Source: Candidatus Gastranaerophilales bacterium (GTDB lineage: Bacteria > Cyanobacteriota > Vampirovibrionia > Gastranaerophilales > Gastranaerophilaceae). From it: a stretch of 44,147 nt of DNA. The stretch lies in the NCBI GenBank assembly GCA_947630535.1, contig CANRHZ010000013.1, positions 1 to 44,147 on the forward strand, read 5' to 3'. The translations under genes and the position numbers were made by a program. This document shows, piece after piece, positions 2,394 to 37,821 of this stretch. The notes beneath the pieces were generated by a model. It searched no databases, was not told the origin of the DNA, and saw only the letters and a list, made by a program, of their open reading frames with translations. Numbering within the stretch: the first letter of the stretch is position 1; each line of letters opens with the position of its first letter.

Positions 2394-3149
2394 TTATTGT
2401 GCGGACGGATTCATATTGTCTTCATCAAGCAGAGTCTGAAGTTTTGTGCCCACAATCATTTTACCGTCACGTCTTATTGCAAGCCCGAATTTATATTCGT
2501 CTTTAAGTTTATCATCGGTTGTAAAGCAAACAACATTATAAAAAGAAGGAGAAGTTATCCCGCTTACAACTACATTTTTATTATAGCTAAAATCCGTATT
2601 TTGAACATACCAAAGTACCCCGTCCGCCGTTTTAAAGTTGGGTGTTGTATCTTTTGTGGTGGCGGTGCAAATTGTATCTATGTCACTTTGAAAAGTAGCC
2701 ATATCAAGACGTGTATTGCTTGAAGTGCTTTGAATGCATATACCTTTTCTTTTGTCATTATCAGTGGCAAAACTATAGTCCTTTCCCGAACATTTATTTG
2801 AAGGTTTTTGGCCTACTAAAGTATTTATGGTATCTTGCGTACAGTCAGATTCTTTTACATTCAGTGTTTCAGCTAAATTGTTACAGAAAAACTGGTTAAT
2901 ATCATCCGCATCATCCAAACCGAATGTGGTTGATACAAAGTTTCCGTCTGAATGCGAGTAGACACCTGAATTTAGCAGATATTCTACTGCCCTTGTTATT
3001 GTATTATAAGCTTTTTTAGCCTTTAATTTATGATGGTCGGGAGATGCGTTTAAAAGTGCGGGGATTAATATAGCTGAAAGCACCCCTATCAAAAGAAAAA
3101 CTATCATAAGTTCTGTTATCGTAAAAGCCTTTTTTCTATCCAAAAACAT
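2394..3149 (-). CDS. Type IV pilin-like (pseudopilin) protein
   Basis: The 251-residue product begins with a short basic leader and the prepilin motif KKA|FTITELMIVFLLIGVLSA, where E is residue +5 after the cleavage point; the hydrophobic helix continues to about residue 30. The rest is a globular domain with four to six cysteines and no function I recognise. I start it at the ATG at 3149 because AGAGG lies six bases upstream; an in-frame TTG at 3173 would have no ribosome-binding site. It would be processed by a prepilin peptidase and assembled by a type IV pilus or type II secretion machine, neither of which is encoded here. It lies 20 bp upstream of mtnP. Confidence 0.85.
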   Translation of the reverse strand: MFLDRKKAFTITELMIVFLLIGVLSAILIPALLNASPDHHKLKAKKAYNTITRAVEYLLNSGVYSHSDGNFVSTTFGLDDADDINQFFCNNLAETLNVKESDCTQDTINTLVGQKPSNKCSGKDYSFATDNDKRKGICIQSTSSNTRLDMATFQSDIDTICTATTKDTTPNFKTADGVLWYVQNTDFSYNKNVVVSGITSPSFYNVVCFTTDDKLKDEYKFGLAIRRDGKMIVGTKLQTLLDEDNMNPSAQ

Positions 3150-3229
3150 ATAAAACCTCTTTTTATAAACCAATTCTTAACATATTAATTATAAAGTACT
3201 TTTTAGCCGTTTGCAATATTTTAAGAGTT

Positions 3230-5588: not shown

Positions 5589-6260
5589 ATGAAAAAAAAT
5601 TTGGCTTTTACCGTTGTTGAAATGTTAATTGCAACTTTAATTATTGGTGTTCTGGCGGCAATTATACTTCCCTCTTTGATTGAGCTTCAGACCGAGGCAC
5701 GATTTATTGCCGGACTTAAAAAAGCAACAAATGCGATTAATGATGCAATCTCGCTTAACATAACAAAAGGATACAGATCCGCTTTTTCAACAACGCAGGC
5801 TGACTATTCCAATTCAACAAATATGGGTTTTCCACTGTTTTTGTATCTGCAAAAGGCTATGGATGTTAACGAAATGTCCGAAGTTTCAAAAAGATCAAAG
5901 GCATCCAACAATTCGGAATTTTATACAAAAGATAATATGCGCTTTGAATTTCCAAGGGAAAATGGCGGAAGCTCCGAATTTTCGGGACTTAAAATCGGCG
6001 ATTCTTCAACCGGTTTTACCGCAAAAGAATACGCTTGCGGTACAAGCGGGCTTGATGTAAAGGGTGTTTCAACCGCAGTAAGAGATAGTGACCCGTGTGT
6101 TATCCTTGTTGACGTTAACGGTTCAAAACAACCAAATCAGCTAACCGACAATGTAAACGGAATTTCTGATATGTTTTTAATTATTGTGACGGATAAAAAC
6201 GCATTCCCGTACGGTGAAGTCGCACAAAAAGCATATTATGAAGCAAGAAAAACAGATTAA
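5589..6260 (+). CDS. Type IV pilin-like (pseudopilin) protein
   Basis: The 223-residue product opens with MKKNLA|FTVVEMLIATLIIGVLAAIILPSL: a two-lysine leader, Glu at +5 and the hydrophobic assembly helix (residues 7-30), followed by a globular domain with one potential disulfide pair (about residues 151 and 170). The -1 residue is Ala rather than the usual Gly, which prepilin peptidases tolerate in some pseudopilins. AGGA precedes the ATG. It is the second of three prepilin-like genes in the window; the three differ outside the N-terminal helix, so they are probably minor subunits with distinct heads. Confidence 0.85.
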   Translation: MKKNLAFTVVEMLIATLIIGVLAAIILPSLIELQTEARFIAGLKKATNAINDAISLNITKGYRSAFSTTQADYSNSTNMGFPLFLYLQKAMDVNEMSEVSKRSKASNNSEFYTKDNMRFEFPRENGGSSEFSGLKIGDSSTGFTAKEYACGTSGLDVKGVSTAVRDSDPCVILVDVNGSKQPNQLTDNVNGISDMFLIIVTDKNAFPYGEVAQKAYYEARKTD

Positions 6261-36657: not shown

Positions 36658-36822
36658 TTTGATATATAAGTCATATTTTTTAATTTATATCAAACAAAAA
36701 GGAATGTAAAATTATTATTTGATATCATATTCAACCGCATAAAAAATATTTTGCCCAAGTCTTTAATCTTTATTGTTGCATCTTTATCAAAAATAAGTTA
36801 AAATATATAGTGTAATATCAAA
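36658..36822. promoter_or_regulatory. Divergent control region with four TTTGATAT/ATATCAAA boxes
   Basis: Boxes lie at 36658-36665, 36687-36694 (inverted; with the first a perfect 9-bp inverted repeat 36658-36666/36686-36694), 36718-36725 and 36815-36822 (inverted). A candidate minus-strand promoter, TTTACA (36710-36705), 17 bases, TAAATT (36687-36682), touches the second box. The first and fourth boxes lie just upstream of the ribosome-binding sites of the scaffold gene and of the prepilin gene. This looks like an operator set; the regulator is not identifiable here. Confidence 0.5.
36776..36804 (+). promoter_or_regulatory. Sigma70-type promoter of the poly-C prepilin gene
   Basis: TTGCAT (36776-36781), 17 bases, TAAAAT (36799-36804), 32 bp before the ATG at 36837. 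One TTTGATAT-type box (36815-36822) lies between promoter and ribosome-binding site. Confidence 0.65.
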
Positions 36823-36836
36823 TAGGAGTTGATTTT

Positions 36837-37821
36837 ATGGATAATTTATTTGGAGCTTACCCCCCCCCCCAAGGGATTAGGCGGATTTACTTTAGCTGAA
36901 GTATTGATAACACTAACAATTATAGGTATCGTTGCAGCTATTACTCTGCCAAGTTTACTTGTTAATGTTAACGATAAAGCATGGAACGCTCAAAGAAAAG
37001 CACTTTATGCAAGAATGAGCCAAGCAATAGGAGAGATGGATAGTATTTCAGGTTATGGCTCATCAAATAATGAAACGGAAGATGAAATTAAAGATGGGGC
37101 AGCGGAAGCTTTCATAATCAACGGACTATCAAAAGTTTATAGGGTTCAAAACATTTGTAACTCAAATAATTTATCTGCATGCGGGATACCATCATCCATA
37201 ATTACCCTAAATGGCAGCACAATGCAATTTCCAAAATCCGTTAGCGAATTAGACAGTACATTAACTGATGCAAAAAATAAAGCTACGGATACTAAAGCGG
37301 CTGCCTTTGAAACGGTTAACGGTGAATCAATAGCGCTTTTTTATAACCCCAAATGTGAATCAGACCATCCTGATAAACTTCATTTTGCAGGTCAGGTATT
37401 TTGCGCAAATATGATATACGACCTGAATGGTCTAAAAGGCCCGAATGAAGTCGGAAAGGATGTAGGGTTTATAACGATACTTTACAGAGCAAACAGTGTC
37501 GTTGTTGCTCCGAATTTGTTTCCGGCAAACGCAGGAAAAGCCGCTTCCTATCCTAAAAGCAATGCATCGGGTGATGCCGCAAAAGATGCAGCCTCTCTAT
37601 GCGCTCAACAGGGAGATGATGCAAGGCTTCCTGACAGAGATGAACTTGTTTCAATGTATATAAATCGTTCATTGATTAATATACTGACAGACGGCTACTG
37701 GTCAGGTTCGGTAGTATCTTCGGGAGAAAGCGGGCGTGTATGGGTAATTGCCATGCATGACGGGGGCAGAGACAGGTATGACCGCACGGCCACCCTTAAT
37801 GTTCGCTGCGTAAAAAAATAA
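36837..37821 (+). CDS. Prepilin with Lcl/DUF1566-like C-terminal domain, frameshifted at a C11 tract
   Basis: The ATG at 36837 (AGGAG eight bases upstream) reads MDNLFGAYPPP and then leaves the frame at eleven C (36860-36870), stopping soon after. With ten C it would continue into GLGG|FTLAEVLITLTIIGIVAAITLPSLL, a canonical prepilin leader and helix, and on to the stop at 37821, giving about 328 residues. The only in-frame start as sequenced is TTG 36829, directly against the AGGAG and hence poor. The C-terminal 75 residues (ARLPDRDELVSMY, DGYWSGSV, VWVIAMHDGG, NVRCVKK) resemble the Lcl/DUF1566 lectin-like domain. So this is either a phase-off adhesin-type pilin or a sequencing slip. Its own promoter and terminator flank it. 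Confidence 0.8.
36860..36870 (+). repeat. Homopolymeric C11 tract in the prepilin leader
   Basis: Eleven consecutive C, striking in such AT-rich DNA, lie eight codons after the ATG. Loss of one C, or a change by any net one-less step of three, restores the prepilin frame. Such tracts are classical slipped-strand switches. Confidence 0.85.

Follow-up and report, generated by a model that had tools for sequence, protein, structure and literature searches.

At one locus of a Candidatus Gastranaerophilales genome, a well-formed translation start leads into a run of eleven cytosines, and the type IV prepilin sequence on the far side of this run lies in another reading frame. The question raised is whether the gene is misassembled, silent, expressed by slippage of the transcription or translation machinery, or captured in one state of a switch. 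The locus was analysed within a 44,147-nucleotide stretch of forward-strand DNA (the window), together with tract-flanking stretches and pattern searches of the rest of its genome (G000) and genomes of related bacteria.

Architecture of the locus

The features of the locus are collected in Table 1. The ATG at 36837-36839, read directly from the sequence, opens a frame that is assembled as MDNLFGAYPPPQGIRRIYFS and then stops, whereas FTLAEVLITLTIIGIVAAITLP begins at 36886 in a frame other than that of the ATG and stays open until the stop codon at 37819-37821. With 23 nt from the ATG to the tract and 15 nt from the tract to the TTT at 36886, FTLAEV is joined to the ATG frame when the tract length is 1 modulo 3, that is by C10 or C13 and not by C11 or C12. 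The preliminary description had reported that the gene runs from an ideal AGGAG site and ATG into eleven C and there loses the FTLAEVLITL frame, which direct reading of the sequence confirms; its statement that ten C would restore the prepilin frame agrees with the arithmetic, and thirteen C would do so as well.

Table 1. Sequence features at the prepilin locus (window coordinates).
Feature	Position	Strand	Remarks
Promoter-like box TTGCAT-N17-TAAAAT	36776..36804	+	putative; matched by eye
Shine-Dalgarno sequence AGGAG	36824..36828	+	8 nt on the 5' side of the ATG; GGGAG in paralogues
ATG and leader as far as the tract	36837..36859	+	ATG frame MDNLFGAY
C11 tract, the proposed switch	36860..36870	+	read directly from the sequence
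KGLGG, end of the prepilin leader	36871..36885	+	cleavage expected before F at 36886; N_methyl PF07963
Mature prepilin, 311 amino acids and stop codon	36886..37821	+	N-terminal helix, middle domain, C-terminal Lcl/C-type-lectin-like domain (predicted)

The spacing between ATG and tract is common to nearly all paralogues in G000. A TTG at 36829 shares the frame of FTLAEV, but it is an unlikely start because the Shine-Dalgarno sequence directly abuts it; alternative TTG starts that fall in the prepilin frame at some tract lengths were likewise rejected, having no properly spaced Shine-Dalgarno sequence. None of 100 dinucleotide-shuffled versions of the window contained a C11 run, and the Markov expectation is 0.002 per window. 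The locus thus has a pure short-unit repeat far above chance, as in contingency loci, and the repeat lies within the coding path, where a change of its length joins or breaks the frame.

The protein and the prepilin peptidase

The prepilin has the G|FTLAE motif and the hydrophobic helix of type IV prepilins (residues 3-50 in the structural model), and its match to N_methyl (PF07963) scores 23.1 bits, above the Pfam cut-off of 21.2. A prepilin peptidase gene is present in G000 (C2:9873). Elsewhere in the window, two prepilin-like genes at 2397-3170 (- strand) and 5589-6257 (+ strand) have no long homopolymer, and their whole proteins score marginally below the N_methyl cut-off.

An AlphaFold model of the mature protein, built from 53 paralogues and homologues, has a mean pLDDT of 86.8. 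Its top Foldseek match is the C-terminal domain of Legionella Lcl (PDB 8q4e; E 1.3e-4, target TM 0.62, 20% identity), followed by C-type lectin-like proteins. The C-terminal domain is therefore predicted by the model to have an Lcl/C-type-lectin-like fold, which is what the preliminary description had proposed for it. A fold is claimed rather than membership of the Lcl_C sequence family (PF07603) because the Pfam match, at 22.3 bits, is below the curated cut-off of 34.9. The predicted C-terminal fold resembles that of Legionella Lcl, and here it is fused to a type IV prepilin.

Tracts throughout the genome

The G000 assembly is fragmented (1.85 Mb in 72 contigs). C/G runs of at least nine nucleotides number 55 across it, against about three expected from a first-order Markov model of the window, whereas A/T runs of at least nine are absent from the window (1-44147), where about 16 are expected. 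Prepilin sequence directly follows 35 of the 55 runs, with leaders that are near-identical over the Shine-Dalgarno sequence, start codon and tract; the genome has 44 prepilin motifs in all, and 66 stretches related to the protein encoded at 36886..37821. Starts and states were scored by script and by eye. Fully assembled prepilin tracts range from C10 to C13 and are mostly C12 or C11, with C12 as the mode. Among those with both flanks assembled and a clear ATG, 19 of 20 are out of frame, and both OFF phases occur; the one in-frame tract is a C13 on contig C7.

In eight pairs of paralogues whose 105 flanking nucleotides differ at no more than two positions, tract length is unequal in seven, so the tract evolves faster than its flanks. 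Length polymorphism among close copies, as in contingency loci, is thus found between paralogues of G000; tracts of genus g7 (see below) are mostly C10. Contig ends cluster at the tracts. This might have pointed to length heterogeneity, but the clustering is accounted for by repeated leaders together with poly-G sequencing artefacts, and that reading was abandoned.

Most of the non-prepilin tracts lie in or beside genes for glycosyltransferases (GT2, GT6, GT8, GT9, GT10 fucosyltransferase and GT11), NAD-dependent epimerases, an acyltransferase, a polysialyltransferase-like protein, a polysaccharide deacetylase and a methyltransferase; other tract-bearing genes encode a GDSL hydrolase and a few proteins of unknown family. 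The positions of these tracts vary: some are near the gene start, some internal and some at the 3' end, and one lies immediately upstream of its gene. The tract-bearing glycan genes belong to the usual classes of contingency loci. As assembled, and with several starts ambiguous, 9 of the 13 start or internal tracts of glycan genes are in frame and 4 are out of frame, compared with 1 of 20 in frame for the prepilins (Fisher p = 1.6e-4, with paralogues that are not independent).

Selection on the out-of-frame prepilins

All copies with assembled upstream DNA have their own promoter-like box, Shine-Dalgarno sequence and ATG; the consensus of the box among paralogues is TTGAAA-N17-TAAAAT, at the same position as the box at 36776..36804. 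The frames of 20 tract-bearing paralogues are intact on the 3' side of the tract, and their median pairwise dN/dS is 0.18, with values of 0.04 in the N-terminal helix and 0.30 in the C-terminal domain. By these substitution ratios the out-of-frame prepilins are under purifying selection. Together with the promoter-like boxes, Shine-Dalgarno sequences and intact frames, this indicates that the genes are expressed and translated at least sometimes.

Distribution, phase and loss of the tract among relatives

For a neighbouring gene in the window, the closest named relatives are Candidatus Gastranaerophilales genomes from animal guts. Synteny revealed no tract-bearing prepilin at the equivalent locus of named relatives, a search of genome contigs with the prepilin as query found no relative, and no tract-bearing leader of another strain was found among the viral contigs searched. 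Across the family, tracts of C10 or longer are present in 149 of 191 genomes, and their number in a single genome runs from zero to over 120. Tracts of C8 or longer within 28 nt before a prepilin motif were found in 33 of 383 family genomes, belonging to 6 of 41 genera, and a control with the reversed pattern found none. By this motif search, at least six genera of the family have prepilin leaders with poly-C or poly-G; one of these genera (g11) partly relies on contig-end runs.

Sixty prepilin tracts from 21 other genomes comprise 55 OFF (one of them, L257, with masked upstream bases), three ON and two uncalled (one of them, L249, possibly with a TTG start), counts that are not independent within genera. 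The preliminary description had suggested comparing tract lengths in related genomes, and the comparison gives two pictures. In genus g7, C10 in a single OFF phase is the state of nearly every tract across several species, with conservation of the leader in the ATG frame; this is more uniformity than hypermutable tracts would lead one to expect. In G143 (genus g10), which has 127 tracts of C10 or longer, almost all sampled tracts are poly-G (G10-14) shortly on the 3' side of a prepilin Shine-Dalgarno sequence and ATG. Runs of 20-52 nt of G/C at contig ends of G143 and G126 (L387, L394, L400 and L253), which are probably sequencing artefacts, inflate tract counts.

Twenty poly-G tracts before prepilins of G143 were scored as 14 OFF, four ON, one in phase but blocked by a stop codon, and one uncalled; the ON fraction, 4 of 18, does not depart from a neutral one third (p = 0.45). 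Between tract and prepilin motif lie 10-381 nt. In 19 of the 20 cases the prepilin frame is uninterrupted over this stretch (the exception being the blocked L385, with 66 nt), and 18 of the 20 lengths are divisible by three (the exceptions being 10 and 112 nt), as expected if translation passes through the tract. Repeat-like inserts (TGTCATCCCGAACTTGTTTCGGGATCTG and similar) stand between poly-G and prepilin motif, mostly in frame, in L379-L408 of this genome.

Within the genus of the window's genome, congener G008 has a prepilin leader with a G run, and in congener G007 the window prepilin has at least 109 homologues, at about 55% identity; many of these are paired or arrayed (L178-L193). The 53 leaders of G007 that were examined are short, in frame and free of homopolymers. 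Orthologues without a homopolymer, which the preliminary description would have counted against a switch, thus exist to this extent, and the tract-free leaders of G007 make the switch lineage-specific rather than an ancestral part of the gene. On the genomes compared, the switch is gained and lost between lineages.

Loss of mismatch repair was considered as a cause of the tracts. Among 20 genomes tested, MutS is present in all and MutL in nine, from genera g2, g6, g7, g10, g13, g38 and g41; MutL (PF01119) was not detected in the other 11, which belong to g1 (seven, G000 and six congeners), g36 (three) and g22 (one). Tracts are few or absent in the MutL-less relatives tested and many in MutL-bearing genera. 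Tract number does not track the absence of MutL in any simple way, and missing mismatch repair, which would not by itself account for the tracts, was set aside as an explanation.

Slipped-strand switching and its alternatives

The C11 tract is most probably a slipped-strand translational phase switch in the leader of a lectin-like type IV prepilin, captured OFF. Slippage during replication would add or remove C in the tract at 36860-36870, and changes of length would join the prepilin to the frame set by the Shine-Dalgarno sequence and ATG (ON) or part it from that frame (OFF); the assembled C11 would be an OFF length, and switching in cells would be reversible. The roughly 35 tract-bearing prepilin leaders and the putatively phase-variable glycan genes would together make up a phasome of many loci, and similar leader switches may operate in six or more genera of the Gastranaerophilales family that was searched. 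The prepilins may be assembled into pili and bind glycans, and cells may benefit by evading host immunity or phage. As first proposed for this gene, a phase-variable adhesin in its OFF state is the best reading, and it has more support than the sequence of the locus could offer: the putative leader switches of dozens of paralogues, the tracts in glycan genes, the differences in tract length, selection and the predicted fold.

The main rival is programmed slippage, which is unlikely: tract length in DNA would be stable, and RNA polymerase or the ribosome would slip on the C run to give a low, constant in-frame output. Length and phase should then be constant between orthologues, which is nearly so in g7, where the ATG-frame leader is conserved as well, but not in G000 or G143. 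Since the near-identical leaders suggest that the g7 genes were duplicated, their uniform phase may be inherited and their counts not independent; poly-G tracts of Campylobacter also usually concentrate at lengths of 9-10 (PMC6321876). The predominance of OFF phases among prepilins of several genera, and the purifying selection on out-of-frame genes, are likewise in keeping with programmed slippage. Against it, the tracts of G000 span C10-C13 and are unequal between near-identical flanks, and those of G143 span G10-14 with about a quarter ON. G000 holds both OFF phases, so that opposite shifts would be required, and the same tracts occur in glycan genes, which are classic targets of DNA switches. 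The functional slippage reported in PMC1088944 concerns A/T runs.

The bias to OFF deserves separate comment. It is strong among prepilins, with one of 20 ON in G000 and three of 60 in the 21 other genomes, and it weighs against slipped-strand switching, as do the uniform tracts of g7 and the large tract-free family of G007. In all five poly-C lineages examined, the usual tract length is an OFF length, which at two-thirds odds each is expected by chance in 13% of cases, and a default-OFF design is for this reason no more than a suggestion. As strong evidence for a programme the bias was downgraded, because duplication passes a phase on within a genus and the counts there are not independent. 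A tentative extension of slipped-strand switching is that the prepilins constitute a library of lectin-tipped pilins with lineage tract set-points at OFF, in which most cells would express few pilins or none and rare switchers would try each pilin, giving near-exclusive expression with no dedicated regulator.

It is very improbable that a homopolymer error of sequencing or assembly has disrupted an ordinary gene whose true tract is in frame. Such errors could be suspected from the contig ends that cluster at tracts and from the artefact-like G/C runs of 20-50 nt that end contigs in other assemblies, but contig-internal tracts are flanked on both sides by unique sequence, and the pattern repeats in assemblies of many species. 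Within the same assembly, moreover, glycan tracts are mostly in frame and prepilin tracts almost never; error would not separate gene classes in this way.

Hardly any weight attaches to the proposal that the copies are decaying pseudogenes or silent cassettes, a pilS-like archive for recombination. The copies are numerous with conserved 5' ends, their median dS is lower in the N-terminal part than in the middle part (0.70 vs 1.47), which is compatible with gene conversion, and the near-duplicate prepilins L016 and L018 (dS 0.28) have unlike leaders and differ in their tracts, one an in-frame C13 and the other an out-of-frame C11, which suggests leader exchange; yet prepilin copies of G000 with assembled upstream DNA keep the promoter-like box, Shine-Dalgarno sequence and ATG, unlike pilS donors, which lack promoter and 5' end, and the intact frames and low dN/dS speak against decay.

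Comparison with known systems and significance

Helicobacter pylori switches fucosyltransferases by poly-C tracts, and G000 likewise has one GT10 fucosyltransferase gene with poly-C (L033), but its tract is near the 3' end of the gene and the main targets in G000 are prepilins. In Neisseria, poly-G tracts switch individual accessory pilus genes, pilC among them, and pilE/pilS conversion varies the pilin itself, whereas G000 has dozens of prepilin genes, each with its own tract, promoter-like box and Shine-Dalgarno sequence. Neisseria also has type IV pili and homopolymer switches in surface genes, and its phase-variable repertoire includes pilus-associated genes (PMC5084427, PMC1097732). A further close likeness is to the Campylobacter phasome of poly-G/C contingency loci (PMC6321876): in both, long G/C runs of around 9-12 nt stand out in an AT-rich genome, lie mostly in open reading frames of surface-structure and glycan genes, and toggle the frame by their length. 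The present system differs in that most of its tracts appear to control one amplified prepilin family, in that its mode is C12 and its switching is presumptive, and in that it belongs to an uncultured gut bacterium related to Cyanobacteria.

No description of phase variation in Gastranaerophilales was found in the literature searched, most subscription journals being outside its coverage. To our knowledge, this lineage related to Cyanobacteria has no pathogenic member. Poly-C/G tracts of the Campylobacter and Helicobacter type are spread genome-wide in an uncultured gut lineage, reaching more than 100 per genome, and they focus on an amplified family of lectin-like pilins where examined, and in G000 also on surface glycan genes. 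Their distribution suggests that these gut microbes may shuffle sticky surface fibres and sugars through random slips of DNA, as some pathogens do.
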